A DNA stretch of 34,271 nucleotides from Vicinamibacterales bacterium (GTDB lineage: Bacteria; Acidobacteriota; Vicinamibacteria; Vicinamibacterales; CAVVIG01): assembly GCA_025450765.1 (NCBI GenBank), contig JANWLS010000144.1, positions 1-34,271 of the forward strand, in the 5' to 3' direction. Under the pieces are notes generated by a model. It saw only the letters and a list, made by a program, of their open reading frames with translations. It was not told the DNA's origin and did no database searches. Shown here piece after piece: positions 15,370 to 33,670 of this stretch (position 1 is its first letter; each line of letters starts with the position of its first letter). A program made the position numbers and the translations under genes.

Positions 15370-17244
15370 ATGAGCACCGCCGTTGAACAGCGCCTGACGT
15401 CGTTGTGGGAAACGCCGAAGACTCTGCGGGGATTTCTCGGCACGGTCGATCACAAGGAACTCGGCCGCCGCTACATCGTCACGGCCTTCATCCTGCTCAT
15501 CATCGGCGGTCTCGAAGCGCTGGTCATCCGGCTGCAGCTCGCGGGCCCGAACGGCACGCTGCTCACACCGGAGGAATACAACCAGATCTTCACGATGCAC
15601 GGGACCACGATGATCTACTGGTACGCCGGTCCCATCCTGTCCGGCTTCGCGATCTTCCTGATCCCGCTCATGAGCGGCGCACGCGACCTCGCGTTCCCGC
15701 GCCTGAATGCCTTCACGTACTGGACGTTCCTCTTTTCGGCGGTGATTCTCTACGTCGGCCCGATCCTCGGCGAGGCGCCGCATGCGGGCTGGTTCGCCTA
15801 CGCGCCCTACACGAACGCGCAGTATTCACCGGCGCACGGGATGGACTTCTTCAACTGCGCGCTGCTGCTCCTCACCGTCTCGACGATCGGCGCCGCGATC
15901 AATTTCATCGTCTCGATCCTGCGGCATCGAGCGCCCGGCATGACGATCGGCCGCATGCCGCTCTTCTTCTACAGCACGCTCACCGCCTCCTTCGTCGTCC
16001 TCTTCTCGCTCCCGTCGCTCACGGCCGCCAACCTGATGATCGAGCTCGATCGCCGGTGGGGCTTCCGCTTCTTCGACGTCGCGCACGGCGGCAAGGCGCT
16101 GCTGTGGCAGCAGGTGTTCTGGTTCTTCGGCCATCCGTGGGTCTACATCATCTTCCTGCCGGCCACCGGCATGGTGTCGATGATGCTCCCCGTCTTCTCG
16201 CGGCGCCCGATCGTCGGCTACACCTGGGTGGCCGCGGCGACGGTGCTCACCGGCCTCACCGGATTCGGCGTGTGGGCGCACCACATGTTCGCCACCGGCA
16301 TGGGCCAGATGAGCATGAGCTTCTTCGGCGCCGCGAGCATGACGATTTCGATCTTCACGATCATCCAGGTGTTCGCCTGGGTGGCGACGATGTGGCGCGG
16401 GCGACCCGTGATGACGACGGCGATGTATTTCGTCGTGGCGTTCCTCGCCCTCCTCATCATCGGGGGTCTGGACGGCGTGGTCACGGCCGTCATCCCGGTC
16501 GACTGGCAGCTCAACGACACCTACTGGGTCGTCTCGCACATCCATTACGTGGTCATGGGCGCGAACACCTTCCCCGTCTTCGCCGCGATCTATTACTGGG
16601 GCCCGAAGATGACCGGACGCCTCATGAACGAGAAGCTCGGCAAGTGGAGCTTCTGGGTGATCATCCTCGGCTTCAACCTCGCGTTCATGACGATGCACGC
16701 GGTCGGCATCGAAGGGATGCCGCGCCGTATCTACACCTATCCGGAGGGCATGGGCTGGAGCGGGATGAACCTGGCCATCACGATCGGCGCCTTCATCCTC
16801 GCGGCCGGCATCCTGCTCACGATCATCAACTTCTTCTGGAGCCTGAAGCACGGCGCGCCGGCCGGCAAGAACCCGTGGAACGCCGACTCCCTCGAGTGGT
16901 CCACCGATTCGCCGCCGCCGCCCTACGGCAGCGTCCACCTGCCCACGGTCACCTCACGCCATCCGCTCTGGGATGAGCACGACGAAGAAGAGGACCCGGA
17001 TGGCTCCCGCATCCTGGACCAGGGGCGCCTCACCTTCTCCACGACCTGGCTGGACGCGGTGCCGTTCGCCGTGGCGCGGATGCCGGACACGACCATCAAG
17101 CCGCTGTTCGCGGCGCTCGGCGTCGCGTTGGCGTTCGGGGCCCTGGCGTATCAGCTGCTGTGGGTGCTGCTCGGTGGCGCCGTCGTCACCATCGTGGTGA
17201 CGGCGATCTGGCTCTGGCCCACGTGGCAGGGAAAGGACGTATGA
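15370..17244 (+). CDS. ctaD: Cytochrome c oxidase subunit I (heme-copper oxidase), divergent proton channels
   Basis: 624 residues with twelve core helices and two extra C-terminal helices (about 575-616). Metal ligands are intact: His77 and His392 for low-spin heme, His390 for heme a3, His255, His304 and His305 for CuB, with the cross-link Tyr259. Channel residues differ from A-type oxidases: the Glu of GHPEVY is Trp257 (GHPWVY), the K-channel Lys of IKVF is Gln333 (IQVF), and the His of the HDTYY magnesium site is Asn382. The entry Asp (Asp106 in GARDLAFPR) is kept. First gene of the plus-strand respiratory cluster; its stop overlaps the subunit III start by ATGA. Function as the O2-reducing subunit is secure; pumping is uncertain. 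Confidence 0.94.
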   Translation: MSTAVEQRLTSLWETPKTLRGFLGTVDHKELGRRYIVTAFILLIIGGLEALVIRLQLAGPNGTLLTPEEYNQIFTMHGTTMIYWYAGPILSGFAIFLIPLMSGARDLAFPRLNAFTYWTFLFSAVILYVGPILGEAPHAGWFAYAPYTNAQYSPAHGMDFFNCALLLLTVSTIGAAINFIVSILRHRAPGMTIGRMPLFFYSTLTASFVVLFSLPSLTAANLMIELDRRWGFRFFDVAHGGKALLWQQVFWFFGHPWVYIIFLPATGMVSMMLPVFSRRPIVGYTWVAAATVLTGLTGFGVWAHHMFATGMGQMSMSFFGAASMTISIFTIIQVFAWVATMWRGRPVMTTAMYFVVAFLALLIIGGLDGVVTAVIPVDWQLNDTYWVVSHIHYVVMGANTFPVFAAIYYWGPKMTGRLMNEKLGKWSFWVIILGFNLAFMTMHAVGIEGMPRRIYTYPEGMGWSGMNLAITIGAFILAAGILLTIINFFWSLKHGAPAGKNPWNADSLEWSTDSPPPPYGSVHLPTVTSRHPLWDEHDEEEDPDGSRILDQGRLTFSTTWLDAVPFAVARMPDTTIKPLFAALGVALAFGALAYQLLWVLLGGAVVTIVVTAIWLWPTWQGKDV

Positions 17245-17864
17245 GCGCGACGGCGATGCTTCAGACCGGCCGGGATTGCCCGCACGCGGCGCCGACGGTG
17301 CTCGAGCTCGATGAGCGCCGCGGCACGTTCGGGATGGCGCTGCTCATCACGGCCGAGTCGATGCTGTTCGTCGTCCTGTTCGCCGCGTACTACTACCTCG
17401 GCCCGCAGACCGATCGCTGGGCGATCGAGGAGCCCCCCAGGCTGCACTACGTGATCCCGATGCTCGTCATCCTCGTGGTCAGCAGCCTCGTGATCTACTG
17501 GGGCGACGAAAAGGTCAAGAAAGAAGCGTTCGGCGCCGGCAAGCTCGCGCTCATCGTCACCATCCTGCTCGGCTGCGCGTTCCTGGCCCTGAGCTATTTC
17601 GATTACACGGAACACCTTCGGACCCTCCTGCCGCAGAGCGATTCGTACGGCTCGATCTTCTACACGATCGTCAGCCTGCATGTGGCGCACCTCACGGCAG
17701 GCCTGCTGATGCTCCTGTGGACGCTGTTCCAGCCCAGGTGGGGCCCGGCGCAGTTCACGCCGCACAAGCCGTATCACAACGCCGCGATGTACTGGCACTT
17801 CGTCGACACCGTGTGGGTCTTCGTCGTGGCCATCCTGTATGTCTATCCCAACATCGTCCATTGA
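17241..17864 (+). CDS. ctaE: Cytochrome c oxidase subunit III
   Basis: 207 residues, five hydrophobic segments. Typical subunit III pieces are ITAESMLFVVLFAAYYYLGP near the N-terminus, FYTIVSLHVAHLTAGLLMLL, and the C-terminal YWHFVDTVWVFVVAILYVYP. The ATG at 17241 overlaps the subunit I stop (ATGA) with GGAAAGGA upstream. It is of the short five-helix form that lacks the first two helices, as in many caa3 clusters where these are fused to subunit I; the two extra helices at the end of this subunit I fit that arrangement. Confidence 0.9.
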   Translation: MSATAMLQTGRDCPHAAPTVLELDERRGTFGMALLITAESMLFVVLFAAYYYLGPQTDRWAIEEPPRLHYVIPMLVILVVSSLVIYWGDEKVKKEAFGAGKLALIVTILLGCAFLALSYFDYTEHLRTLLPQSDSYGSIFYTIVSLHVAHLTAGLLMLLWTLFQPRWGPAQFTPHKPYHNAAMYWHFVDTVWVFVVAILYVYPNIVH

Positions 17865-17866
17865 TC

Positions 17867-18286
17867 ATGAGTACTCCATCTGATGTCGAACGGCCGCAGA
17901 CGGTACCGCGCAAGCACCTGTGGTTCGGCTTCGCGGGCGCGTCGGTGGCCTGGATCCTCGCGCTGGCACTCGACGTGACGTGGACCGGCCGCGGGTGCCC
18001 GCGCTCGGAGACGGTGCTCCTGCTGCCGGCCGAAACGTGGCTCCTCGTCTCGCTCGGGCTCATCACCTTCGGCATGCTCGCGGTCGCCGCCGGCGCGGGG
18101 CTCACGTCGTATCGCAACTGGCGCACGATCGCCGGCCCGGCCGCCGATCTCTTCTCGCGGGAGCCACACAGCCGCGAGGAGTTCATGGCGATCTTCGGGA
18201 TGATCGTGAGCACGTCGCTCGCCATCGGGATCTTCTGGTTCTCGCTGGCCGTGTATCTGATCGGCATGTGTGTGAGGGCCCACTGA
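17867..18286 (+). CDS. Three-helix membrane protein of the oxidase cluster, unknown
   Basis: 139 residues with three hydrophobic stretches (about 20-37, 54-76 and 108-132) and a short amphipathic middle part containing DLFSREPHSREEFMAIFGM. It has two Cys (WTGRGCPRSE and the end IGMCVRAH). It starts two bases after subunit III and shares one base with the next start (TGATG), so it is translated with its neighbours. Position suggests a small accessory subunit or assembly factor of the oxidase. I do not recognise a family. Confidence 0.7.
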   Translation: MSTPSDVERPQTVPRKHLWFGFAGASVAWILALALDVTWTGRGCPRSETVLLLPAETWLLVSLGLITFGMLAVAAGAGLTSYRNWRTIAGPAADLFSREPHSREEFMAIFGMIVSTSLAIGIFWFSLAVYLIGMCVRAH

Positions 18287-18675
18287 TGCGCGCGCTTCGT
18301 CCCGGCCTGCTCGCGGCGATGGCGCTCCTGGGGCTCGTCACGATGACGGCCTGTGTCGGGGGGACCTCGGCGAGCGTGTACGCCATCACGACCGGCGGCA
18401 ACGCCGACGCCGGCCGCCAGCTCATCGCGCAGCTCCGCTGCGGCGCCTGTCACGTCATTCCCGGCGTCCGGAACGCCAACGGCATGGTGGGACCGCCGCT
18501 CATGTGGTTCAGCCGCCGCACGATGATCGCCGGCGAAATTCCGAACACCCCGCAGAACCTCGAACGCTGGGTGATGGCGCCCAAGTCGGTTGAACCAGGC
18601 ACCGCCATGCCGGCGCTCGTCGCGACGCGGCAGCAGGCGCGCGATATTGCGGCGTACCTCTACACGCTGCGTTGA
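18286..18675 (+). CDS. Lipoprotein cytochrome c, class I (upstream of the dehydrogenase)
   Basis: 129 residues. Signal peptide with lipobox VTMTAC (Cys23), so it is membrane-tethered on the periplasmic side. One heme site CGACH (Cys52, Cys55, His56) with Met108 in GTAMPAL as likely sixth ligand. The start overlaps the preceding stop by one base and the PQQ dehydrogenase follows after 9 bases, so it probably shuttles electrons between that enzyme and the oxidase. Confidence 0.9.
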   Translation: MRALRPGLLAAMALLGLVTMTACVGGTSASVYAITTGGNADAGRQLIAQLRCGACHVIPGVRNANGMVGPPLMWFSRRTMIAGEIPNTPQNLERWVMAPKSVEPGTAMPALVATRQQARDIAAYLYTLR

Positions 18676-18684
18676 GGAGGATCA

Positions 18685-20544
18685 ATGACCCGGCAGACCC
18701 GCACGGCGCGGCGGGCGGTATTCGTCCCCGCGCTCGGCATCCTGTGTGGCCTCGTGCTCGTCCTCTCGCCCGGGCTGCACGCGGCGCCGCCGGAATCAGC
18801 CGGTGTCACGGTGCCCGGCCAGCGGAGCGACATTCATCTGGTGAGCCCCGTGCCCGACGGCACCTGGACCCTCCCGGCGGGCGACATGGCGAACACGCGC
18901 TACAGCCCGCTCGATGACATCAATACGACGAACGTGACGAAGCTGACGCCGGTGAAGATTTTCGCCGACGGCATCCCGCACGGCCATGAAGGACAGCCGC
19001 TCGTCGTCAACAACACGCTGTACATGGTGACGCCGTTCCCGAACTACCTGATCGCGTTCGATCTGACCAAGCCCGGCTTCCCGATGAAGTGGAAGTACGA
19101 GCCCCATCCCGATCCGCGGTCCGTCGGGAAAGCCTGCTGCGACACGGTGAACCGCGGCGCGAGCTACGCCGACGGGAAAATCGTCTACGCCACGCTCGAC
19201 GACAACGTCGTGGCGGTGGACGCCGACAAGGGGACGGAGATCTGGCGGACGCCAGTCGGCGAGGTCTCCAAGGGTGAAACCGAGACGATGGCGCCGCTCA
19301 TCGTGAAGCACGTGGTGATTGTCGGCATCAGCGGCGGCGAGCTGGGCACGCATGGCCGCGTCACCGCCCTCAATCTCGATAACGGCCAGGTCATGTGGCG
19401 CGCCTACAACACCGGCCCGGACAAGGACTGCCTGATCGGTCCCGACTTCCACCCGTACTACGCGAAGGATCAGGGGAGGGACCTCGGCGTGAGCACGTGG
19501 CCGCCTGACGCGTGGAAGATCGGCGGCGGTCCCGTGTGGGGCTGGATCTCGTACGACCCGCAGCTCAACCTCATTTATTACGGCACGGGCAATCCCGGGC
19601 CCTGGAATCCCGATCAGCGCCCCGGCGCCAACAAGTGGACCTGCACGATCTGGGCGCGCGATCCGGAGACCGGCCAGGCGAAGTGGGCGTTCCAGATCGT
19701 CCCCCACGACGCGTGGGATTACGACGAAATCATGGAGAACATCCTGGTCGACATGAACTGGGAGGGGAAGCCGCGCAAGCTGCTGCTGCACCCCGCGCGC
19801 AGCGGCTTCATGATGGTCTTCGATCGGCAGACGGGGCAGCTCCTGTCCGCCAAGGCGTTCGAGCCGGTGAACTGGGCCTCCGGGTTCGACCTGAAGACGG
19901 GCGAACCGGACGTGGATTCCTCCAAGGTGACGCACACGGGTGTCTTCGCACGCGACGCATGCCCCTCGTCGACCGGGGCCAAGGAGTTCGTGCCGTCCGC
20001 CTTCTCGCCGAAGACCGGACTGCTCTACATCCCCGCTCACAACACCTGCATGGACCGCGAAGGCCTGAAGGCGAACTACATCCAGGGAACGCCGTACGTC
20101 GGGGCGGACGTCAACATGTATCCCGGACCGGACGGCTACCAGGGCGAGCTCATCGCCTGGGATGTCGAGCACGCGAAGAAGGTCTGGTCGATCAAGGACG
20201 CCGTGCTGCCGGTCTACAGCGGCGTGCTCGCCACGGGCGGCGATCTCGTGTTCTACGGGACGCTCGAGGGGGAGTTCCGGGCGGTCGACGCGCACACCGG
20301 CAAGGTCCTCTGGCAATTCAAGACCGGCTCGGGCATCGTCGGCGACCCGATCACCTTCAAGGGCCCTGACGCCAAGCAATACGTCGCGATCTATTCGGGT
20401 GTCGGCGGCTGGATGGGCGCGGTCGCCTTCCCCAGCATCTCTCTCGACGATCCCACGGCGGCCCTCGGCGTGGTCGGTGCCATGAAGCCGATCAAGCAGC
20501 TCACCGCGCCGGGCGGCGCGCTGTACATCTTCGGTCTCCCTTAG
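18685..20544 (+). CDS. PQQ-dependent alcohol dehydrogenase with lanthanide-type Asp-x-Asp site (XoxF/ExaF-like)
   Basis: 619 residues with a signal peptide and an eight-bladed propeller fold; no fused heme domain. GAGGAGG lies 5 bases before the ATG. Residues of the quinoprotein site are visible: the adjacent disulfide pair Cys151-Cys152 (KACCDTVNRG), Glu219 (SGGELG), Asn303 (GTGNPGPWNP) and the catalytic Asp345. Two residues later stands Asp347 (WDYDE). Calcium-type MxaF has Ala there (WDFAG); Asp at this place is the known mark of rare-earth-dependent XoxF and ExaF enzymes. It would oxidise a primary alcohol, possibly methanol, in the periplasm and pass electrons to the cytochromes c on either side. 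Substrate cannot be fixed from sequence. No pqq synthesis genes are in the window. Confidence 0.92.
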   Translation: MTRQTRTARRAVFVPALGILCGLVLVLSPGLHAAPPESAGVTVPGQRSDIHLVSPVPDGTWTLPAGDMANTRYSPLDDINTTNVTKLTPVKIFADGIPHGHEGQPLVVNNTLYMVTPFPNYLIAFDLTKPGFPMKWKYEPHPDPRSVGKACCDTVNRGASYADGKIVYATLDDNVVAVDADKGTEIWRTPVGEVSKGETETMAPLIVKHVVIVGISGGELGTHGRVTALNLDNGQVMWRAYNTGPDKDCLIGPDFHPYYAKDQGRDLGVSTWPPDAWKIGGGPVWGWISYDPQLNLIYYGTGNPGPWNPDQRPGANKWTCTIWARDPETGQAKWAFQIVPHDAWDYDEIMENILVDMNWEGKPRKLLLHPARSGFMMVFDRQTGQLLSAKAFEPVNWASGFDLKTGEPDVDSSKVTHTGVFARDACPSSTGAKEFVPSAFSPKTGLLYIPAHNTCMDREGLKANYIQGTPYVGADVNMYPGPDGYQGELIAWDVEHAKKVWSIKDAVLPVYSGVLATGGDLVFYGTLEGEFRAVDAHTGKVLWQFKTGSGIVGDPITFKGPDAKQYVAIYSGVGGWMGAVAFPSISLDDPTAALGVVGAMKPIKQLTAPGGALYIFGLP

Positions 20545-20554
20545 GGCATTGAGT

Positions 20555-21067
20555 ATGCGACGACTGCTCCTCACGATCTTCGCGGTGCTGGTGCCGCTCG
20601 GCCTGCTCGCCTGCAGCGGGCGGTCGGCCAATTCGGCCGACCCGCCGGCGCCGCCGATGTCGGGCACGGGCAACGTCGGGATCCCGGTGGGCCCCATTCC
20701 GGGCCCGGGTCAGCCGGCGGCACTGCCGAGCAATCCATATGCAGATAACCCGGTCGCCATTCAGGACGGCCGCCGGCTCTTCCTCTGGTACAACTGCGCC
20801 GGCTGTCATGGTGGCCACGCCGGAGGCGGGATGGGCCCGAGCCTGCGCGACAAGGACTGGATCTACGGCGGCGACCCGGCGCACATCTTCGATTCCATTC
20901 TCGAGGGGCGCGCGCACGGCATGCCCGCCTGGGGCACGAAGATTCCGGAGGACCAGATCTGGAAGCTGGTCGCCTACATCAAGTCCCTGCGCACGCCGCA
21001 GGAACCTGACCCGCCGGTCGCGCCGCCCGAGCCGAAGACGCGCACGGTACACGAGCCGCCGCAGTAA
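20555..21067 (+). CDS. Lipoprotein cytochrome c (downstream of the dehydrogenase)
   Basis: 170 residues with lipobox GLLAC (Cys20), then a Pro/Gly-rich linker of about 45 residues, then a single heme domain with CAGCH (Cys81, Cys84, His85) and Met123 in HGMPAWGTKIP. The C-terminal 25 residues are Pro-rich. ATG 20555 is preceded by AGGG; a TTG at 20549 is possible. A second membrane-tethered cytochrome next to the quinoprotein fits the role of its direct electron acceptor, as XoxG serves XoxF, but which of the two is the partner is open. Confidence 0.9.
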   Translation: MRRLLLTIFAVLVPLGLLACSGRSANSADPPAPPMSGTGNVGIPVGPIPGPGQPAALPSNPYADNPVAIQDGRRLFLWYNCAGCHGGHAGGGMGPSLRDKDWIYGGDPAHIFDSILEGRAHGMPAWGTKIPEDQIWKLVAYIKSLRTPQEPDPPVAPPEPKTRTVHEPPQ

Positions 21068-21088
21068 CAGGTAAAAAGAGACGCAGCC

Positions 21089-22102
21089 ATGTCTGTTCGC
21101 CGCGTGATTCCCCTCTCGACGATCCTGCTGGCGCTCGCCGCCTGCGGCGGCAGTCCGCAATCGACGCTCGCCCCCGCGGGTCCGGCGGCCGGTCTGCTGG
21201 CCCATCTGGGCTGGGTGGTCTACATCACGTTCGGCATCGCCGCGGTCGTCACGATCATCATCGTCCTGATGGCGGCGCTCCGCCGCCGCGGTTCACTCGA
21301 TGGACACCTGCCCATCGACATCGGTGGCGGCCACCAGTGGATCCTGATCGGCGGCCTGGCGATTCCGTTCGTGGTCCTGACCGGCATCTTCATCTTGAGC
21401 CTGGTCCGCGAGAGCGCCTTCCCGATCAAGGACGGCGGGAAGGTGACGCCGGAAATCCAGGTGATCGGGCATCAATGGTGGTGGGAAGTGCACTATCTCA
21501 CCGGCCCGGAGAACGAGCACTTCGTCACGGCGAACGAGATTCACATTCCGGTGGGCCGGCCGGTGGACATCGAGCTGCAGAGCGGCGACGTGGTGCACTC
21601 CTTCTGGGTGCCGGCGCTGCACGGCAAGGTGGAGCTCATTCCCGGCGTCACCAACTACATCCGGATCGAGGCCGACCGCCCCGGCAGCTATCAAGGTCAG
21701 TGCGCGGAGTTCTGCGGCGCGCAGCACGCGCACATGCGGCTGCTGGTCGTCGCCGACTCGCCGCAGACCTACGCGGCGTGGCATCAACACATGCTCAGCC
21801 CCGCCGCGATCCCGCAAGGGGTCGACGCGCAGCACGGCGAAGCGGTGTACATGAACGCGGCCTGCACCTTCTGCCACACCATCGGCGGCACGCCGTCTCA
21901 GGGGAAGGTCGCGCCCGATCTCACGCACCTGGCAAGCCGGCAGTACATCGCCGCCAACACCTACAGGAACGACACGGCCGATCTCGAAGCCTGGGTCACC
22001 CACGCCCAATCGATGAAGCCCGGCGTCCTCATGCCGAATCTCACGAGCTTCAACGGCGTGGATCTACGGGATCTCGTCGCGTATCTGGACCAGCTGAAAT
22101 AA
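21089..22102 (+). CDS. ctaC: caa3-type cytochrome c oxidase subunit II fused to cytochrome c
   Basis: 337 residues: lipobox LAAC (Cys19), two transmembrane helices (about 40-64 and 84-106), a CuA cupredoxin domain with His170, Cys205, Cys209, His213 and Met216 (CAEFCGAQHAHM), and a C-terminal cytochrome c domain with CTFCH (Cys259, Cys262, His263) and Met315. The motif GHQWWWEV (127-134) is the aromatic electron entry patch. Fusion of heme c to subunit II defines the caa3 type, so electrons enter through this domain, probably from the two lipoprotein cytochromes. It is placed after the dehydrogenase genes rather than next to subunit I, tying both parts into one unit. Confidence 0.94.
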   Translation: MSVRRVIPLSTILLALAACGGSPQSTLAPAGPAAGLLAHLGWVVYITFGIAAVVTIIIVLMAALRRRGSLDGHLPIDIGGGHQWILIGGLAIPFVVLTGIFILSLVRESAFPIKDGGKVTPEIQVIGHQWWWEVHYLTGPENEHFVTANEIHIPVGRPVDIELQSGDVVHSFWVPALHGKVELIPGVTNYIRIEADRPGSYQGQCAEFCGAQHAHMRLLVVADSPQTYAAWHQHMLSPAAIPQGVDAQHGEAVYMNAACTFCHTIGGTPSQGKVAPDLTHLASRQYIAANTYRNDTADLEAWVTHAQSMKPGVLMPNLTSFNGVDLRDLVAYLDQLK

Positions 22103-22128
22103 GTGGAATGGCGAGGGCTGGTCCCGAT

Positions 22129-22157
22129 TTGCGCCCACCCGCGCCAGCGATTATCAT
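22129..22157 (+). promoter_or_regulatory. Candidate internal promoter before the cupredoxin-like lipoprotein
   Basis: TTGCGC (22129-22134) and TATCAT (22152-22157) are 17 bases apart in the 126-base gap after subunit II, the largest gap in this cluster up to cyoE. It would give a leader of about 65 bases to the GTG at 22229. Confidence 0.4.
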
Positions 22158-22228
22158 GGGCAGTGGTACGTGCGCCGCTCGCCCGCGCCGTCACTGCCAT
22201 CCTGGCCGCTTCCAAGACGAAATCCGAC

Positions 22229-23050
22229 GTGAAACGTCCTCTGTCCCTGTCTCCGCTCGTCCTCGCCTTCGCCCTGGCGGTTGCCGCCTGCGGTGGCGGA
22301 AGCCAACCATCCCAGGCGGGGAGCCAGGCGGTCTCGGATCAGCCGTCGACGGAACCAGCGCCCGTCAAGCCCGGTCCGCCGGTCGATCCGGCGACCGCTG
22401 GGCGTCTCACCGGTCGCGTGGTATTCCAGGGGACGCCACCACCCAATCCGCCGATTGCGATGACCACCGATCCGGTGTGCACGGCGGCCTCCAAGGGCAC
22501 GACCCCGCACGAGGAATGGTACGAAGTGGGACCGAATGGCGGTCTTGGCGACGTGTTCGTCTACGTCAAGTCGGGCCTGGCGAATCATTCGTATCCGGTG
22601 CCGACCACCCCGGTCACCATCGATCAGAAGGGCTGCCAGTACGAGCCGCATGTCTTCGGCATCCGCGCGGGGCAGCCGCTGCTCATCCTGAACAGCGATC
22701 CGACGCTGCACAACATCCACGCGATGGCGCAGGTGAACCAGGAATTCAACACCGGCCAGCCGCTCCAGGGGATGAAGACCACGCACGTGTTCACCGATCC
22801 CGAGGTGATGCTCCCCTTCAAGTGCGATGTCCATCGCTGGATGCACGCGTATGCGGGCGTCATGCCCGATCCGTATTTCGCCGTGAGCGGCAGGGATGGG
22901 GCGTTCTCGATCGACACGCTGCCGCCGGGCCACTACGTGCTCGCCGCGTGGCACGAGAAGCTCGGCGAACAGACGATGAACGTGACGATCGATCCGAAAC
23001 AGACCGCCCAGGTCACCTTCACGTTCGACGCACCGAAGGCCACGAAATGA
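22229..23050 (+). CDS. Cupredoxin-like lipoprotein with possible type 1 copper site
   Basis: 273 residues from GTG 22229, chosen because the signal peptide with lipobox AVAAC (Cys21) starts there; the open frame upstream to 22103 has no signal character. After a Pro-rich linker come a beta-rich domain and the segment NSDPTLHNIHAM (155-166), then FKCDVHRWMHAYAGVM (197-212). His161 or His164, Cys199, His202 and Met205 have the order of blue-copper ligands in plastocyanin-like proteins. The end (GAFSIDTLPPGHYVLAAWHE) is like the carboxypeptidase-regulatory fold. Located between subunit II and heme O synthase, it could be another electron carrier of the chain. Ligand assignment is inference. Confidence 0.7.
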   Translation: MKRPLSLSPLVLAFALAVAACGGGSQPSQAGSQAVSDQPSTEPAPVKPGPPVDPATAGRLTGRVVFQGTPPPNPPIAMTTDPVCTAASKGTTPHEEWYEVGPNGGLGDVFVYVKSGLANHSYPVPTTPVTIDQKGCQYEPHVFGIRAGQPLLILNSDPTLHNIHAMAQVNQEFNTGQPLQGMKTTHVFTDPEVMLPFKCDVHRWMHAYAGVMPDPYFAVSGRDGAFSIDTLPPGHYVLAAWHEKLGEQTMNVTIDPKQTAQVTFTFDAPKATK

Positions 23051-23057
23051 GGGGACG

Positions 23058-23969
23058 ATGAGCCGCAGCCTGTCGGTGGAATTGACGGCAGACGCCGGCG
23101 CGACCAGTCGCCTGCGGTTCGCGGACTTCATCACGATCACGAAGGCCCGGCTGAACTTCCTCGTGATCATCACCGCGGCCGCCGGCTACTATCTCGGCGC
23201 CGGCGACCACTTCGACTTCGTCACCTTCGTCCATCTCGTCGTCGGCACCGGCCTCGTCGCGTTCGGATCGGCGGTCTTCAACCAGACCTACGAGCGCGAC
23301 ACGGACGCCCTGATGCGGCGTACGCGGATGCGGCCACTGCCCGACGGGCGGATTCAGCCTGGTGAGGCGCTCCTGCTCGCCAGCGTCCTGTCCGGCGCCG
23401 GCACGCTCGAGCTCGCGCTCTGGACCAACTGGCTCGCCACGGGACTGGCGGTCCTCACGCTCGTCACCTACGCGGCGATCTACACGCCGATGAAGCGCCG
23501 CACGTCGCTCGCCACGCTGGTCGGCGCGATTCCCGGTGCACTGCCGCCGATCGTCGGCTGGGCCGCCGGCCAGGGCTCGCTCCCGATCGAAGCCTGGGCG
23601 CTCTTCTCGATTCTCTTCCTCTGGCAGATGCCGCACTTTCTGGCCCTCGGCTGGATGTATCGTGAAGACTTCGCGCGCGCCGGCTTCCCGCTGCTGCCGG
23701 TGATCGAGCCCGACGGCCGGAGCACCGGCCGGCAGACGGTGATGTATGCCGCAGCGCTCGTGCCGGTGAGCCTCATCCCGTGCGTGACGGGCCTCGCCGG
23801 CGGCCTCTATTTCGTCGCCGGCCTGATCCTCGGCGCCGGACTCGTCGCGCTCGCCGTCCGCTTCGCCATGACCCGCACGGTCGCCTCAGCTCGTCGTCTC
23901 TTCCTCGGCTCGATCGCCTACCTGCCGCTGCTGCTGGGGATGATGATTCTGGGGCACCTGCTTCGGTGA
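23058..23969 (+). CDS. ctaB: Protoheme IX farnesyltransferase (heme O synthase)
   Basis: 303 residues, about nine helices, UbiA superfamily. The prenyl-diphosphate site NQTYERDTDALMRRTRMRP (75-93) carries the conserved Asn, Asp81/Asp83 and Arg residues, and the early motif FITITKARLN is typical. It farnesylates heme B to heme O, the first step to heme A needed by the oxidase encoded upstream. GAGGGGACG precedes the ATG, 8 bases after the lipoprotein stop. Confidence 0.94.
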   Translation: MSRSLSVELTADAGATSRLRFADFITITKARLNFLVIITAAAGYYLGAGDHFDFVTFVHLVVGTGLVAFGSAVFNQTYERDTDALMRRTRMRPLPDGRIQPGEALLLASVLSGAGTLELALWTNWLATGLAVLTLVTYAAIYTPMKRRTSLATLVGAIPGALPPIVGWAAGQGSLPIEAWALFSILFLWQMPHFLALGWMYREDFARAGFPLLPVIEPDGRSTGRQTVMYAAALVPVSLIPCVTGLAGGLYFVAGLILGAGLVALAVRFAMTRTVASARRLFLGSIAYLPLLLGMMILGHLLR

Positions 23970-23983
23970 GTTGTCCCGAGATT

Positions 23984-24060
23984 CTGTCAGCATCATTCAA
24001 GTGGCGGCGGGGCCCCACCCCGGTCGCGAACTGACGCCGATGCTTCGCTCGGGATTCACA
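23984..24060 (-). repeat. Dispersed intergenic element, copy 1 (inverted)
   Basis: Read on the minus strand this stretch matches 32824-32899 over about 75 bases: GTGAATCC near the start, GCATC-GCG, a palindrome-like core GGTGGGGCCCC and the end TGATGCTGACA. It lies 15 bases after the heme O synthase stop, pointing back at that gene. Confidence 0.65.
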
Positions 24061-24070
24061 TGTCCCTCGC

Positions 24071-24110
24071 CCTTCGACAGGCTCAGGGCGAGCCTGAGCA
24101 GAGTCGAAGG
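24071..24110. repeat. REP-like palindromic repeat
   Basis: CCTTCGAC (24071-24078) pairs with GTCGAAGG (24103-24110) and the inner GCTCAGG (24081-24087) with CCTGAGC (24093-24099), giving a long imperfect hairpin. The CCTTCGACAGGCTCAGG sequence is a common extragenic palindrome in high-GC bacteria. It may also act as terminator between the respiratory cluster and the DUF420 gene. Confidence 0.65.
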
Positions 24111-24176
24111 CTCGCTCGGCATGGCCGCGGGCGCTCCCATCGCTGACTTCCTGGTTTCGACGGTTCTGACCTGATC

Positions 24177-24590
24177 ATGTTTTCCATCGAAGCGCTGCCG
24201 GCCTTGAACGCTGCGCTCAACGGCATCGCGGCCGCCTTGCTGGTGGCCGGCTTCGTGTTCATCCGGCGCGGGCGGGTGGCGCAGCACCGGGCGTGCATGC
24301 TGTCGGCGCTGGGGGTGTCGGTCCTGTTCCTGATTTCGTATCTCACCTACCACGCGCAGGTCGGCGACGTCCGGTATCAGGGGCAGGGCCTCATCCGCGC
24401 GGGCTATTTCGCCATCCTGATTCCCCACATCATCCTGGCGGCCGTCGTCCCGCCGCTGGCGCTCATCACCGCCTCCTTTGGCCTGCTGGGCCGGTTCGAC
24501 CGCCACGTGAAGGTGGCCCGGTGGACGCTGCCGATCTGGCTGTATGTCTCGGTGACGGGCGTGGTGATTTACGCGATGCTGTTTCTGTAG
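24177..24590 (+). CDS. DUF420 membrane protein (YozB/CtaM-like oxidase assembly factor)
   Basis: 137 residues with four helices. The pattern of conserved His in or near helices (AQHRACM, YLTYHAQVGD, LIPHIILA, DRHVKVARWT) is that of the DUF420 family, members of which are needed for making active heme-copper oxidases in Bacillus and Staphylococcus. Its place after heme O synthase fits that role. It is separated from the cluster by about 200 bases holding two repeats, so it may have its own transcript. No strong ribosome site before the ATG. Confidence 0.8.
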   Translation: MFSIEALPALNAALNGIAAALLVAGFVFIRRGRVAQHRACMLSALGVSVLFLISYLTYHAQVGDVRYQGQGLIRAGYFAILIPHIILAAVVPPLALITASFGLLGRFDRHVKVARWTLPIWLYVSVTGVVIYAMLFL

Positions 24591-24707: not shown

Positions 24708-25655
24708 ATGCGTCTACGTGTTCGTCTGCTTCAGGTAGCCGTGATGGCGCTCTGCGTCATCGGGCTGGCCGGATCGGCGCTGGCCCAGATCGGCCGCGTC
24801 GGCGGCTCCGTGAAGGATAGCAAGGGCAAGCCGATCGCGGGGGCCACGGTGACCGCGCAGAACCCGAACGCGTCACCGAGCTCCTTCACCACCAAGACCG
24901 ACAAGAACGGCGACTTCTCCATCATGGGGATGTCGAACGGCGTCTGGACGTTCACCGCGGCCGCGGATGGGTTCGCTCCCTCGTCGGGCAAGCTGAACGT
25001 CGCGACCATCAGCAGCAACCCGCCGGTCGACTTCACGCTGAAGCCGGGCGAGGGTGCGGCGGGCGGCACGTTCGCGGGCGTCAACACCAAGGAGCTGCAG
25101 GGCGAGCTCTCCGCCGCCGACGCGCTCTTCAACCAGAAGCAGTATCAGCAGGCGATCGACGCCTACCAGGCGATCCTGAAGAAGGCGCCGACGCTCACGG
25201 TGCTGAACCTGCAGATTGGCGCCGCGTACCGGAACATGAAGGAGTACGACAAGGCGCTCGCGGTCTACAACGACGTCCTCAAGACCGACCCGAACAACGA
25301 ACAGGCGGTCGTCGCCATCGGCATGACGGACCTCGAGAAGGGCGACCTCGCCGCCGCCGAGGAGACGCTCACCAAGGCGGCGCAGAGCCTGAGCGCCACG
25401 CGCGAGGTCTTCTACTCGCTCGGCGAGGTGAAGTTCGCCAAGGGTGAGACCGACGAAGCGGCGAAGTGGTACCAGAAGGCGTCCGACACGGACCCGAACT
25501 GGGGCAAGCCGCTCTTCAAGCTCGGGCTGGTGGCGCTCAACAAGGGCGACAAGGCCGGCGCGCTGAAGTACCTGCAGAAGGTCGTCGACGTCGATCCGAA
25601 TTCGCCCGAGGCGGCGCAGGCCAAGGCGGTCATCGCTCAGCTGCAGCAGGGGTAA
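24708..25655 (+). CDS. Secreted TPR protein with N-terminal carboxypeptidase-regulatory-like domain
   Basis: 315 residues. A signal peptide (VAVMALCVIGLAGSALAQ) is followed by a beta-sandwich (about 30-115: GGSVKDSKGKPIAGATVTAQ, then GDFSIMGMSNGVWTFTAAAD), then five or so TPR units (about 128-310) with the usual Ala/Tyr/Pro pattern, such as YQQAIDAYQAILKKAP and KALAVYNDVLKTDPNNE. It probably acts as a periplasmic protein-binding scaffold. AGGGGAG lies upstream of the ATG. It begins the plus-strand TPR-rich group and is separated from the next gene by a strong hairpin. No enzymatic motif. Confidence 0.8.
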   Translation: MRLRVRLLQVAVMALCVIGLAGSALAQIGRVGGSVKDSKGKPIAGATVTAQNPNASPSSFTTKTDKNGDFSIMGMSNGVWTFTAAADGFAPSSGKLNVATISSNPPVDFTLKPGEGAAGGTFAGVNTKELQGELSAADALFNQKQYQQAIDAYQAILKKAPTLTVLNLQIGAAYRNMKEYDKALAVYNDVLKTDPNNEQAVVAIGMTDLEKGDLAAAEETLTKAAQSLSATREVFYSLGEVKFAKGETDEAAKWYQKASDTDPNWGKPLFKLGLVALNKGDKAGALKYLQKVVDVDPNSPEAAQAKAVIAQLQQG

Positions 25656-25674
25656 CGGCTGTCCAAGGGTTCAC

Positions 25675-25702
25675 GGCGCCGGCCGCCCTCGCGGCCGGCG
25701 CC
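25675..25702 (+). terminator. Perfect 12-bp all-GC hairpin between the TPR gene and the next start
   Basis: GGCGCCGGCCGC (25675-25686) pairs exactly with GCGGCCGGCGCC (25691-25702) around the 4-base loop CCTC. It lies 19 bases after the TPR stop and 10 bases before the GTG of the following gene. There is no T-run. It could stop or slow transcription, or hide the start region of the next gene. Confidence 0.6.
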
Positions 25703-25712
25703 TGTCCGCTCC

Positions 25713-27905
25713 GTGCGCCGCTCCTGGCGCGCCCCCCTCATCGTCGGCCTCGTCTCGGCTGGCGTCCTCATCGCTGCTGTCTTCGGATGGCGATTCGCGC
25801 GCAGCTCCACCCGCCCCTCCGGCCCGATCATCCTCATCTCGCTCGACACGACGCGCGCGGATCATCTGTCCATCTACGGCTATACGCACGGCCACACGCC
25901 GGCGATTGACGCGCTCGCGCGCGACGGCGTGGTCTTCGAGCGCGCCTACGCGCAGGCGCCGCAGACGCTCCCGGAGCACACCTCGATTCTCACCGGCGAG
26001 CTCCCGTTCCAGCATGGTGTGCGCGACAACCTCGGGTTCACGCTGACACCCGGTGCGGCGACCTGGCCGAGGCTCCTCGCGGCGCACGGCTACGCCACGG
26101 CCGGCTTCGTTTCTTCTTACGTGCTGCGGCCGGACACCGGGATCAACCAGGGATTCGAAACCTACGACGCGGCGATGCCGGCATCATCTCCGGAGACCTC
26201 GGTGGGCGACGTCCGCCGCGATGGACAGCTCACCGAACAAGCGGCCGAACGCTGGATCGACGGACAATCGTCTTCCAGGTTCTTCCTCTTCCTTCATCTC
26301 TATGACGTGCACCGGCCGTATGAGCCCAGGCCGGCGTTCAAGGCGCTGGCGCCGTACGATCAGGAGGTCGCCTACGACGATCAGGAAGTCGGACAACTGA
26401 TCGGGCTGCTGAAGCGCAAAGGTCTGTACGACCAGGCCACGATCGTCCTGCTGTCGGATCACGGCGAAGGGCTCGGCGATCACGGCGAGCTCGAGCACGG
26501 CGTCTTCATCTACGACGACACGATCCGCGTGGCCCTCGTGATGAAACTGCCCGGCAACCGCTCCGCGGGCCGACGGGTGCCCGTGCCCGTGCAGCACATC
26601 GACGTGCTGCCGACGATCCTCGACCTGCTGCACATGTCGCGGCCGTCGGACCTGCGCGGCCGCTCGCTCGTGCCGGCCCTGGACGGCACCGGCACGATCC
26701 CCGAGCAGGGGATTTACGCCGAAGCGATGTACCCGCGGTATCACTTCGGCTGGAGCGACCTCCATTCGCTCACCGATGTGCGCTATCGCTACATCCAGGC
26801 GCCGCATCCCGAGCTGTACGACCTCGAGCGCGATCCGGGCGAGCGGCACAATATCGCCGCGGATCGGCCGCGCGTCGCCGAGGCGATGGCCGCCGCGCTC
26901 ACGCAGATGATGTCCGGCGCGAAAGCGGACGCGCCGTCGCAGGTCTCCCCCGATACGCTCGCGCGCCTGCAGTCGCTCGGCTACGTCGGGACGGTCGCCG
27001 CCGTCTCGCCGTCCACCCCTTCCTCTACGCTGCCCGATCCGAAAGACAAGCTGCCGGTGCTGGAGCGCTATCGGCAGGCGGTCGACGATGCGGACAGCCG
27101 GCAGTTCGAGCCGGCCATTGCGCTGCTGCGGCAGATCGTGGCCGGCGATCCCGAGATGGCCGACGTGTGGGATCGGATCGGCAACATGAGCCTGCGCATC
27201 GGCCGGTCGGCCGACGCGGCTGATGCCTACAAGCGGTTCATTGCGCTCAAGCCGGACCAGCCGATCGGCTACATGGGTGCGGCCACCGCGCTGATGCAGC
27301 TGAAGCAATACGACGCCGCGCTCGAACATGCACGCCTCGCGGCGAGGGTGTCAGGGACTGGCGATCCCCACGGGGCGGCGAACGCGCATGCGCTCGCGGC
27401 GCGCATCGCCATTGCCGCCGGTCACGCCGACGACGCCCGCCAGGAAGCGTTGGCCGCCGAACAGATCGATCCGACGCTGCCGATGAAGGCGTTCGTCGAC
27501 GCGCGCCTGCTCTATGACGAGGGCAAGTACGCCGACGCGCTGCCACATTTCCAGGCCGCGCTCGCGCAGGCGGCTAATCGTCCGGTGCAGGTGCCGGAGC
27601 TCCACTACTACGCCGGCGATACCTTCGGCCGGCTGAACCAGTATCCGCAAGCCGAGCAGCAGTTCAGCGAAGAGCTGAAGTACTTTCCGCAGAACACGCG
27701 CGCCTACGCCGGGCTCGCGATGGTGTATCGCGCCGCCGGGCAGGATGCGCAATCGGATGCGGCCGTCCAGCGTCTCCTGCAGGCCTCGCCGATTCCGGAC
27801 AGCTACGCGCTCGCGGCGAAGCTCTGGACGATGTTCGGGGAGCCGCAGCAGGCGGAGGCGGCGCGCGCTGAGGCACGACGCCGCTTCGGCACGCGAAGGC
27901 AGTAG
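25713..27905 (+). CDS. Membrane-anchored alkaline-phosphatase/sulfatase-fold enzyme fused to TPRs (paralog 1)
   Basis: 730 residues from GTG 25713: N-terminal signal anchor (about 9-26), a sulfatase-like domain (38-400) and TPRs (about 445-725). Metal ligands are seen in LISLDTTRADH (Asp45) and LLSDHGEGLGDHG (Asp249, His250). At the nucleophile position, where sulfatases have C/S-x-P-S-R before LLTG, it has TLPEHTSILTG: Thr85 and His89. Thr is used by phospho- and phosphonate-transferring relatives, so this is unlikely to be a formylglycine sulfatase. The substrate is probably a periplasmic phosphate ester or lipid head group (inference). No ribosome site is visible before the GTG, which lies 10 bases after a 12-bp hairpin. 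Confidence 0.8.
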   Translation: MRRSWRAPLIVGLVSAGVLIAAVFGWRFARSSTRPSGPIILISLDTTRADHLSIYGYTHGHTPAIDALARDGVVFERAYAQAPQTLPEHTSILTGELPFQHGVRDNLGFTLTPGAATWPRLLAAHGYATAGFVSSYVLRPDTGINQGFETYDAAMPASSPETSVGDVRRDGQLTEQAAERWIDGQSSSRFFLFLHLYDVHRPYEPRPAFKALAPYDQEVAYDDQEVGQLIGLLKRKGLYDQATIVLLSDHGEGLGDHGELEHGVFIYDDTIRVALVMKLPGNRSAGRRVPVPVQHIDVLPTILDLLHMSRPSDLRGRSLVPALDGTGTIPEQGIYAEAMYPRYHFGWSDLHSLTDVRYRYIQAPHPELYDLERDPGERHNIAADRPRVAEAMAAALTQMMSGAKADAPSQVSPDTLARLQSLGYVGTVAAVSPSTPSSTLPDPKDKLPVLERYRQAVDDADSRQFEPAIALLRQIVAGDPEMADVWDRIGNMSLRIGRSADAADAYKRFIALKPDQPIGYMGAATALMQLKQYDAALEHARLAARVSGTGDPHGAANAHALAARIAIAAGHADDARQEALAAEQIDPTLPMKAFVDARLLYDEGKYADALPHFQAALAQAANRPVQVPELHYYAGDTFGRLNQYPQAEQQFSEELKYFPQNTRAYAGLAMVYRAAGQDAQSDAAVQRLLQASPIPDSYALAAKLWTMFGEPQQAEAARAEARRRFGTRRQ

Positions 27906-28019
27906 GCACGCGGTCACGCGGAGCACGCGGAGAAAGCCACTCAGGTCGCCACGATGAGCAAGCGCTCACGTAAACAGGTCCGAAGCCAGAAGGCCGAGGC
28001 CCGAGGCCCGAAGTCCGTG
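27906..28019 (+). repeat. Short imperfect direct repeats around the start of paralog 2
   Basis: CACGCGG occurs three times at 27908-27930 (GCACGCGGTCACGCGGAGCA and on), and at 27981-28016 units like CCGAAG, CCAGAAGG, CCGAGGCC recur. They cover the gap and the first coding positions. Simple-sequence expansion is the likeliest cause. Confidence 0.4.
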
Positions 28020-30140
28020 GCCCACAGCCGGCGCGGCGTCGCGGCATTGATTGTCCTGCTCGCGCTCGCCGGGGCCGGCGCCTACTTCTGGCTTGTCCCG
28101 CGTCGCCCCATCGCCGATCTCCATCGCATCGCCGGCCAGAACGTCCTGCTCATCACGATCGACACCCTGCGAGCCGACGCGCTGAGCTGCTACGGCGGGC
28201 CTGCGCAGACGCCCAACCTCGATCGGCTCGCGCGCGACGGCGTCCGGTTCGACTTCGCGCATGCGCAGGCGGTGCTCACGCTGCCGTCGCACACGAGCAT
28301 CCTCACCGGCGAATATCCATTTCAGCACGGCGTGCGCGACAACACCGGCTTTCGGCTGAAAGCTGGGACGCCGACGCTGGCGACGATCCTCAAGTCGCAC
28401 GGGCTCGCCACCGGTGCGTTCGTGAGCGGCTTCCCGCTGAACGCCCGTTTCGGCCTCGATGCCGGGTTCGATGTCTACAACGACGACTTCGGCGAGACGC
28501 GCGGGCCGGCCGATTTCCTGATGGCCTCGCGCACCGCGGGCGAGACGCTGCCGCCCGCGATCGACTGGCTGAAGGCGCAGCACGGTGAATGGTTCGAATG
28601 GATCCATCTGTTCGATCCGCACGCGCCGTACCAGCCGCCGCCGCCCTTCGATCGCGAATACGCGGCCCACCCCTATTATGGCGAGGTCGCGTACGTCGAC
28701 GCCGCGCTCGGACCGCTGTTCGACCTGCTTCGACAGCAAAGCCGGCCGACGCTCGTCATCGTGACGGGCGACCACGGCGAGTCGCTCGGCGATCATGGCG
28801 AGGCGACGCACGGCCTGTTCGCGTACGAATCGACCTTGCGCGTGCCGCTCATCGTGGCGGAGATCGTCCCAGGTGAGCACGAGCCGTCGCGCGGCGAGGT
28901 CGACGAGATCGGCATCCGCCATGTCGACCTGCTCCCCACGGTGCTCGACGCGCTCGGGTTCACGGGCCCATCCGGGCTGCCGGGGCGCAGCTTTCTGGCG
29001 GCGAGCGAACGCCGGTCTGGCGCGGCCCCGCGCGACTCCTATTTCGAGGCGATGGCGCCGATGCTCAACCGCGGCTGGGCACCGCTCGAAGGGGTGATCG
29101 TCGGCCACGACAAGTACATCGATCTCCCCGAGCCCGAGCTCTACAACCTGGGGGCCGATCCGCACGAAGCGCACAACCTGATCGATGATGCGGCCGACGC
29201 CGAAACGCGGCGGACGCTCACGGCGCGCCTGGCCGAATTTCACGCGGATCTGCCCGGCGATCGCCGCACGGAGGATCCGGACGTTGTAGCGCGCCTTCAA
29301 TCGCTCGGGTACGTCTCGGGATCCGCGCCGCGCAAGGCGCGCTATACCGCCGACGATGATCCGAAACGGCTGATCGTGCTCGATCAGATGCTGCACCAGG
29401 CCGTCGACCTGTACGAGCGTCACCAGCCGCAGCAGGCGATTGCGGTCTATCAGCAGATTGTCGACAAGCGGCCGATGTCGCTCGCCTATCAGCAGCTCGC
29501 CTTCGTGCAGTGGGAAACGGGCGATGTGGACGGCGCGATGGCGACGCTGAAACACGCCATCCAGCACGGCCTCACCGACGCGGCCACGCAGGTGCAGCTC
29601 GCCACGTATTTGTCCGAATCCGGGCAACCCGGCGCCGCCCTCCCGATGCTCGAGTCGGTCGCGCGCACGAGCCCGGACGATGTGGAGGGGCTGAACGCGC
29701 TGGGGATCACGTACGCGCGGCTCGGACGAACGAAGGACGCGATGGCGAGCTTCGAGCGCGTGCTGACGATCGATCCGATCGACGGCATGGCGGTCGAAAA
29801 TCTCGGCTCGGTTTATCTCTCCGAGAATCGCCTGACCGACGCAGGCGAGGCGTTCTCGAGGGCGGTCACGATGAATCCCGGATCCTCGCGCGCCCATGCG
29901 GGCCTTGGCGTCGTCCAACTCAAGACGGGACATACGGCCGACGCGGTAGCGAGCTGGAAGCAGGCGGTGGCACTCGATCGGACCAACTACGACGCGCTGT
30001 ACAACCTGGCCGCCGAGCTCGTGCGCGAGGGGAACGTCCCCGAGGCGCGGCCCTACGTGGAGCAGTTCGTGAAAACCGCGCCGCCGGCGCTGTACGAGCC
30101 GGATCTGCAGGCCTTCTCGCGCTGGCTCTCCGTGCACTGA
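27954..30140 (+). CDS. Membrane-anchored alkaline-phosphatase/sulfatase-fold enzyme fused to TPRs (paralog 2)
   Basis: 728 residues, same order as the preceding gene: basic N-terminus, helix (about 28-47), catalytic domain with LLITIDTLRADALSCYGG (Asp70), LTLPSHTSILTG (Thr109 at the nucleophile place, His113), IVTGDHGESLGDHGE, and about eight TPR-like units from residue 470 on. The two genes are clearly paralogs from a tandem duplication but have diverged in the TPR part, suggesting different partners. The first 21 residues are coded by a run of imperfect GAAGxCCxGAGG repeats, so the GTG at 28017 could be the true start. The 48-base gap before it is made of short CACGCGG repeats. Confidence 0.8.
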   Translation: MSKRSRKQVRSQKAEARGPKSVAHSRRGVAALIVLLALAGAGAYFWLVPRRPIADLHRIAGQNVLLITIDTLRADALSCYGGPAQTPNLDRLARDGVRFDFAHAQAVLTLPSHTSILTGEYPFQHGVRDNTGFRLKAGTPTLATILKSHGLATGAFVSGFPLNARFGLDAGFDVYNDDFGETRGPADFLMASRTAGETLPPAIDWLKAQHGEWFEWIHLFDPHAPYQPPPPFDREYAAHPYYGEVAYVDAALGPLFDLLRQQSRPTLVIVTGDHGESLGDHGEATHGLFAYESTLRVPLIVAEIVPGEHEPSRGEVDEIGIRHVDLLPTVLDALGFTGPSGLPGRSFLAASERRSGAAPRDSYFEAMAPMLNRGWAPLEGVIVGHDKYIDLPEPELYNLGADPHEAHNLIDDAADAETRRTLTARLAEFHADLPGDRRTEDPDVVARLQSLGYVSGSAPRKARYTADDDPKRLIVLDQMLHQAVDLYERHQPQQAIAVYQQIVDKRPMSLAYQQLAFVQWETGDVDGAMATLKHAIQHGLTDAATQVQLATYLSESGQPGAALPMLESVARTSPDDVEGLNALGITYARLGRTKDAMASFERVLTIDPIDGMAVENLGSVYLSENRLTDAGEAFSRAVTMNPGSSRAHAGLGVVQLKTGHTADAVASWKQAVALDRTNYDALYNLAAELVREGNVPEARPYVEQFVKTAPPALYEPDLQAFSRWLSVH

Positions 30141-30189
30141 GCGGTGCTATATTCAGGTATTCACCGGGCCTTGCTCACGGAGACGCGGT

Positions 30190-32802: not shown

Positions 32803-32823
32803 GCCACGGCCGAGCCGAGGACC

Positions 32824-32899
32824 AGTGAATCCGAGGCGAGGCATCAGCGATAGCTCGGCGTGGGGGTGGGGCCCCACGCCAACTGAAAAATGCTGACAA
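32824..32899 (+). repeat. Dispersed intergenic element, copy 2
   Basis: About 75 bases with GTGAATCC, GCATCAGCGATAGCTCG, the 12-base palindrome GTGGGGCCCCAC (32866-32877) and AACTGAAAAATGCTGACA. It matches copy 1 read in reverse and ends 9 bases before the start of the propeller-like gene, so the end may supply part of its leader (AAGGAGG follows directly). Confidence 0.7.
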
Positions 32900-32908
32900 G
32901 GAGGCACG

Positions 32909-33670
32909 ATGCATGTGTTGCTCCTCTTGCTTCTGGGACTCCACGCGCCGGCGGCCCCGGCGCCCCTGACCTTCTCCGCACCGGTCCCGGTGGCGCACCT
33001 CGATACCGGCAAGCTCGATGGCGAACTGACGCAACTCGCCTGGTCGCCGGACGGCTCGCAGCTCTATCTCCGCACGACGAAGTCCGACCGGTTCGGCAAC
33101 GTGCAGAACCGGCATTACGTGATCGCGCTCAGCGACAAGTCGCCCAAGCGGGTGAACACGGCGCCGGGCTGGGCGCCCAGCTACTGGCGGTGGAAGTCGT
33201 CGCCCAGCTCTCCAGGATCGGGGGCTTTCCACATCAAGGTCGAGAGCCGGCAGAAGACCTTTCAAGGCGTGGCGACGCCGATGGGCGGCGACCTCGCGAA
33301 AGGCGGCGTCGACACCGGCGCCACCGGGCCGAGTGTGTCCGACATGGCCGCCGCTGCCCGGACACGGCAATCGGCCAACGACGTGCTGTTGACCGCCGCC
33401 GGCCACCTGATCGGCGAGTGGGTCAACGAACCGGTGCAGCCGGGCCTCACCTTCGGCTGGTCGCCGGCATCGGTCGGCGTGCTGACGTTCGTTGATCACG
33501 ACCACGGCGACCGATTGACCGTGCTCGACGCGGCGGGTCACACGACCGTGATCGATGGCGCACAAGGCGCGCTCCTCCCCGCCTGGTCCAACGACGGGAC
33601 GAAGCTGGCATTCCTGCAGCGCGAGGGCAAGAAGAAATACACGTTGGAGATAATGACGGTGAATCGGTAA
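32909..33670 (+). CDS. Secreted beta-propeller-like protein (PD40/TolB-like repeats)
   Basis: 253 residues with signal peptide (MHVLLLLLLGLHAPAAPAP). Repeats of the type LTQLAWSPDGSQLYLRTT, LTFGWSPASVGVLTF and LLPAWSNDGTKLAFLQREGK have the WSPDG signature of PD40/TolB propeller blades. Only three to four blades are evident, so it is shorter than a full propeller. AAGGAGGCACG before the ATG is an excellent ribosome site. It lies between two VWFA-related genes, all on one strand. No catalytic motif seen; probable protein-binding role. Confidence 0.75.
   Translation: MHVLLLLLLGLHAPAAPAPLTFSAPVPVAHLDTGKLDGELTQLAWSPDGSQLYLRTTKSDRFGNVQNRHYVIALSDKSPKRVNTAPGWAPSYWRWKSSPSSPGSGAFHIKVESRQKTFQGVATPMGGDLAKGGVDTGATGPSVSDMAAAARTRQSANDVLLTAAGHLIGEWVNEPVQPGLTFGWSPASVGVLTFVDHDHGDRLTVLDAAGHTTVIDGAQGALLPAWSNDGTKLAFLQREGKKKYTLEIMTVNR

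Follow-up and report, generated by a model that had tools for sequence, protein, structure and literature searches.

The 34,271-nucleotide contig JANWLS010000144.1 (hereafter the window) belongs to a Vicinamibacterales genome, that of a soil Acidobacterium (assembly GCA_025450765.1; 3.3 Mb, 83% complete), and carries at positions 15370-24590 the genes of a haem-copper oxidase, with those of a pyrroloquinoline quinone (PQQ) dehydrogenase and two cytochromes c set between oxidase subunits III and II. This locus is probably an XoxF3-type respiratory module, in which alcohol oxidation is linked to O2 through a dedicated oxidase. The coupling of XoxF3 to cox genes in Acidobacteria has already been published (Voutsinos et al. 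2024, PMC10875860, where an earlier review is cited), and the central claim of a preliminary description of this DNA, namely that one cluster joins a lanthanide-type PQQ dehydrogenase to its own cytochromes and a caa3 oxidase, is therefore a correct rediscovery. The oxidase itself is not of the ordinary caa3 type which that description assumed, because its subunit I (CoxI) lacks both Glu278 and Lys354. The module is thus a well-founded rediscovery to which the oxidase adds a new-looking and testable feature.

The dehydrogenase has its best match among Protein Data Bank (PDB) structures in the lanthanide enzyme 4mae and, when aligned with 4mae, 6oc5, 6dam and 7o6z, retains the adjacent Cys151-Cys152, Glu219, Asn303, Asp345 and Asp347. 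It thereby possesses the features of a lanthanide XoxF, an Asp two residues past the catalytic Asp together with the Glu and Asn ligands, and the numbering Asp345-x-Asp347 given previously is exact. The calcium enzyme MxaF (1lrw) has an Ala where the window dehydrogenase has Asp347; a calcium-type methanol dehydrogenase was rejected on this ground and because MxaF branches elsewhere in the tree. That tree comprised 101 rows with XoxF1, XoxF2, XoxF5 and MxaF references, and neither XoxF4 nor a curated XoxF3 set. Here the window XoxF falls in a 70-row clade (Shimodaira-Hasegawa approximate likelihood-ratio test, SH-aLRT, 84) that excludes all of these references, and within it in a 30-row subclade (support 100) rich in the CoxI-PQQ-CoxII arrangement. 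The position outside the calcium branch and the complete ligand set both agree with the rare-earth cofactor proposed earlier. The 70-row clade also holds the plasmid-borne XoxF of Methylocella tundrae T4, which, judging by its locus number, probably corresponds to the one XoxF3 reported for that strain in a xoxFGJ cluster (PMC11102522); for this reason we call the window enzyme XoxF3-type. The XoxF5 and XoxF2 methanol dehydrogenases (6oc5, 6dam, 4mae) share the Cys-Cys, Glu, Asn, Asp and Asp set and align over the whole fold (~560 residues), but form a separate clade, and an annotated cluster of the XoxF5 branch in Mameliella has no cox genes, unlike the window, and contains glutathione-linked formaldehyde genes. 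Other acidobacterial PQQ dehydrogenases (loci L014-L031 and others) carry Asp-x-Asp without the adjacent Cys pair and occur in many copies per genome.

The neighbours of the relatives of the window dehydrogenase match published XoxF3 systems. Indeed, the XoxF3 gene clusters described for Acidobacteria and Gemmatimonadetes (PMC10875860) and the window have in common XoxF3 and XoxG (in the window an XoxF3-type and an XoxG-like protein), CoxI, CoxII, CoxIII, a cytochrome c and a hypothetical protein of ~110-130 residues beside CoxIII. The window operon differs from them in lacking XoxJ and CtaG, and in having a cupredoxin-like lipoprotein, CtaB and a DUF420 protein instead. XoxJ is also missing between the PQQ dehydrogenase and the second cytochrome (cytB) at loci L058, L061, L067 and L073, and so it is not strictly defining for an XoxF3-cox cluster.

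Gene order was compared across 65 loci, taking one genome per species. The arrangement CoxI-CoxIII-3TM-cytA-PQQ-(XoxJ)-cytB-CoxII, where 3TM denotes a small protein with three transmembrane (TM) helices and cytA the first cytochrome, recurs at about 20 loci on other contigs from several phyla. They belong to Acidobacteriota, Gemmatimonadota and Beta- and Gammaproteobacteria, and include Azohydromonas australica, Modicisalibacter luteus, an uncultured Methylophaga and a Gammaproteobacterium. Two further cases are a metagenome-assembled genome (MAG) that bears the label Actinomycetes yet groups with Acidobacteria, and one of Myxococcales in which CoxI and CoxIII are seemingly fused. The order is hence conserved well beyond the Acidobacteriota, and this rules out chance neighbours, as the preliminary description had supposed. 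Alphaproteobacterial plasmids (Methylocystis, Mesorhizobium, Sinorhizobium) show the permuted order PQQ-XoxJ-cytB-CoxII-CoxI-CoxIII-3TM-CtaG. On the plasmid of Mesorhizobium sp. INR15 (L160), pqqABCDE lie immediately upstream of a PQQ-cytB-cox cluster that has no XoxJ.

In the CoxI of the window, the motif FGHPEVY of A1 enzymes is replaced by FGHPWVY, with Trp257 at the position of Glu278, and their PTGIK by FTIIQ, with Gln333 at that of Lys354. Glu278 (Tyr in A2) and Lys354 are channel residues of A-type enzymes (PMC3084760). Asn113 is likewise replaced (Ile95), while Asp124 is retained as Asp106. The protein is an A-type haem-copper oxidase subunit in the wide sense: it has the PF00115 fold, all six His ligands of haem and CuB, the cross-link Tyr280, Asp124 and a partner CuA subunit. 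In these features, and in the haem c of subunit II, it resembles the A1 and A2 caa3-type oxidases, but it has neither the Glu278 and Lys354 that define A1 nor the YSHP-type motif (Tyr for Glu278, Lys354 kept) that defines A2. An A2 assignment was excluded since the YSHP motif is absent. A second CoxI of the same genome, on contig 80, is of the normal A2 type (YSHPAVY, with the Lys). Misreading of the motif could also be dismissed, as the same Trp occurs in 25 CoxI proteins from several phyla, between an intact His and Tyr.

When CoxI was scored at all loci, three residue types emerged. Trp278 with Gln354 occurs in the window and in the loci that share its order (with Thr in one fragment, L056), and Trp278 with Ala354 in two Gemmatimonadota, Methylocella, Methylocystis, Mesorhizobium INR15 and clusters of Burkholderia and Paraburkholderia without a nearby PQQ gene. 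The third type, Glu278 with Gln354, in which Asp124 is mostly replaced, is found in other Acidobacteriota, Sinorhizobium, Azospirillum and Bradyrhizobium; of these, L066 and L127 retain Asp124, and L065 has only a partial frame. None of the XoxF3-linked CoxI scored retains Lys354, and nearly all of them have also lost a D-channel residue, either Glu278 or Asp124. With the residue-278 column masked, 42 CoxI rows group into a single clade (99), separate from the CoxI that retain Lys354, and the four residue labels on the CoxI tree need only three changes. Proton-channel residues are not mentioned in the text of PMC10875860, and no mention of such changes in XoxF3-linked oxidases was found in the open-access papers searched, subscription papers lying outside the search; as far as we could find, the loss of Lys354 together with Glu278 or Asp124 in this clade appears, from sequence, to be new. 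Archaeal family A oxidases have lost the canonical K-channel several times (PMC8239418), so residue loss alone is no proof of lost pumping. The window clade resembles them in the loss of canonical channel residues, and differs in being bacterial, in its fusion to a haem c domain and in its link to XoxF3. Plasmids of Paraburkholderia and Burkholderia multivorans (L157, L158, L162) carry members of the same oxidase clade, with Trp278, Ala354 and the motif FAHPWVY, that adjoin no PQQ dehydrogenase; one of them has genes for an FdhF/YdeP-type oxidoreductase and an Nramp transporter as neighbours.

In the module that we propose, a periplasmic lanthanide- and PQQ-dependent dehydrogenase would oxidise methanol or another small alcohol and pass its electrons to cytB, the XoxG-like lipo-cytochrome encoded by the next gene, and perhaps to cytA too. 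The next stations would be the haem c and the CuA site in CoxII, followed by the haem-copper centre of the dedicated O2-reducing oxidase; the intact CuA, haem c and haem/CuB ligands support such a path, and the presence of CtaA in the genome also speaks for the module. CtaB, the DUF420 protein and the 3-TM protein may serve assembly or be part of the complex. Since Lys354 and, in the branch of the window, Glu278 are lost, the oxidase would take up protons by another route, or would pump less or not at all.

Several observations weigh against this picture. Two relatives (L078 and L064) are without cox genes in the flanking sequence examined. One point in favour of the module carries a reservation: when PQQ, CoxI and CoxII were compared pair by pair between 13 loci, their identities were correlated (r 0.69, 0.64 and 0.59; none of 5000 permutations reached such values), as expected of genes inherited as a unit, but with species descent uncontrolled. 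The source genome, at 83% completeness, contains neither pqqE over the cut-off nor fae, which leaves the fate of formaldehyde unclear; the PQQ would therefore be imported, as in many bacteria (PMC12124388), or its genes would lie in the missing 17%, and methanol as the substrate is thus an assumption. In Methylocella tundrae T4, the only source of transcript data that we found for a likely relative, the XoxF3 transcript was raised under N2O respiration and not under O2 (PMC11102522). As for the rest of the source genome at this completeness, a second XoxF-type gene was not found, XoxJ gave no match over the cut-off, and the lack of a pqqC match is uninformative, as control genomes were equally silent.

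The most serious competitor, to which we give somewhat less than an even chance, is that the genes share expression only, so that the dehydrogenase and a general-purpose oxidase are made at the same time, exchange electrons by way of the shared pool of periplasmic cytochromes and form no physical complex. The Burkholderia and Paraburkholderia plasmids, with the same Trp278/Ala354 oxidase and no adjoining PQQ dehydrogenase, are in line with this, as are the permuted orders, the divergent XoxF block in Methylocella tundrae, and a dehydrogenase that is soluble, exported and provided with its own XoxG-like carrier. Retention of the insertion between subunits III and II across phyla and the presence of dedicated lipo-cytochromes speak against it, and so does locus L067, where an XoxF without ligands is kept in an intact operon. 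The latter protein (JASHOY010000087.1, 9896-11836) is 61% identical and in frame, yet Cys-Cys has become Phe-Arg, Glu has become Asn and both Asp have become Gly, so that all PQQ and metal ligands are replaced; it lies within a complete Trp278/Gln354 cox operon and is the sole XoxF-type copy of its genome. If real, it would be an argument that the propeller has a structural function, but coming from one MAG it is no more than a lead. A physical assembly of dehydrogenase and oxidase, with the beta-propeller partly structural, would accommodate this case, the intra-operon position at about 20 loci and the correlated divergence of PQQ, CoxI and CoxII. We nevertheless regard such an assembly as unlikely, as no second ligand-less XoxF occurs among 300 further genomes of the L067 family, and gene neighbourhood is not contact.

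A further alternative concerns the oxidase rather than its partner: a haem-copper enzyme without normal energy coupling, be it a non-pumping oxidase that takes protons from the outside, or an enzyme that uses another acceptor such as NO. Nearly all XoxF3-linked CoxI have lost key residues of both canonical channels, in two combinations, and no new acidic residue that could replace Glu278 is common to the Trp-type proteins. Unlike NO reductases, the enzyme retains the cross-link Tyr280, CuA and every metal ligand, and the repeated absence of the K-channel from archaeal enzymes also counts against this alternative. Pumping has, moreover, been reported for enzymes in which D and K residues are altered. 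Altogether, abnormal coupling seems rather improbable to us. A broader scenario, which we put forward as doubtful, is that XoxF3 has an oxidase clade of its own, in which Lys354 was lost at the base and Glu278 or Asp124 afterwards, with a proton route that is unknown or none, and in which the dehydrogenase would be structural in some lineages, persisting even without its active site.

XoxF3 was the most abundant XoxF type in a survey of soil and weathered rock (PMC10875860). Should its dedicated oxidase truly be devoid of functional D and K channels, soil bacteria would gain a different amount of energy from lanthanide-dependent oxidation of alcohols than textbook methylotrophy predicts, and the clade would constitute a natural set of channel mutants for the study of proton uptake and pumping by oxidases. 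We know of no biochemistry on XoxF3, and these predictions are testable in several named organisms whose plasmids have been sequenced: Methylocella tundrae, Sinorhizobium medicae WSM419, Mesorhizobium and Methylocystis iwaonis.

The 3-TM protein corresponds to the small hypothetical protein of the published XoxF3 clusters. It is conserved at 20 loci, with Trp29 and Cys135 invariant, and, encoded directly after CoxIII, it may represent a subunit IV. The AlphaFold2 model consists of three long helices (predicted local distance difference test, pLDDT, 79; predicted template modelling score, pTM, 0.64) and has no fold match in the PDB at E<=0.001, CyoD/subunit IV included. The likeness to 'vesicle-mediated transport' reported for this small protein (PMC10875860) is hence unsupported here; GAT and syntaxin domains appear among its fold matches at E above 1, and the published likeness probably reflects generic three-helix bundles.

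The genes of the locus are listed in Table 1; their identity, strand and coordinates, as first described, were all confirmed.

Table 1. Genes of the XoxF3-type locus in the window, with their supporting matches and motifs
Gene product	Coordinates	Strand	Family match and motifs
CoxI, 624 aa	15370-17244	+	PF00115, 477 bits
CoxIII, 207 aa	17241-17864	+	PF00510
3-TM membrane protein, 139 aa	17867-18286	+	no Pfam/NCBIfam family; place of a subunit IV
cytA, class I cytochrome c lipoprotein	18286-18675	+	PF00034; CGACH; lipobox MTAC
XoxF-type PQQ dehydrogenase, 619 aa, Sec signal	18685-20544	+	TIGR03075, 605 bits (cut-off 480)
cytB, class I cytochrome c lipoprotein, XoxG/cytochrome cL-like	20555-21067	+	PF13442; CAGCH; lipobox LLAC
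CoxII, lipobox, CuA motif CAEFC, C-terminal haem c CTFCH	21089-22102	+	TIGR02866 over cut-off; PF00034
Cupredoxin-like lipoprotein, C-terminal CarboxypepD_reg-like domain	22229-23050	+	PF13620 just under cut-off
CtaB, haem O synthase	23058-23969	+	TIGR01473, 274 bits, over cut-off
DUF420 membrane protein, likely oxidase assembly	24177-24590	+	PF04238, 151 bits

Nine plus-strand genes, CoxI through CtaB, span 15370-23969 and are followed by the DUF420 gene, whose product we take to be similar to CtaM. The tight spacing described for the cluster holds from CoxI to CoxII, where every junction lies between a 4-base overlap (as at CoxI/CoxIII) and a 21-base gap; it does not extend to the cupredoxin-like gene, ~126 bases beyond CoxII when counted from its likely start (GTG at 22229, picked from the lipobox position), or to the DUF420 gene, ~200 bases beyond CtaB. 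Upstream of CoxI, an M23 peptidase and an acyl-CoA dehydrogenase-like open reading frame are in the opposite direction or unrelated, and an operon start at CoxI is therefore plausible. A scan for promoters and terminators gave signals no more than in shuffled sequence, and so we infer a single transcript from gene spacing only. CytB scores 51.7 bits against TIGR03872 (MoxG), which is below the cut-off. The copper ligands of the cupredoxin-like lipoprotein are a by-eye reading, with no library match to a cupredoxin.

Elsewhere in the window, a single minus-strand protein (9161-11809) with AMP-binding, carrier and thioesterase domains resembles a stand-alone non-ribosomal peptide synthetase (NRPS) module. 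Downstream of the locus, a row of genes (24708-33670) encodes a TPR/CarboxypepD protein, two sulfatase-TPR fusions and further TPR and PD40 proteins.

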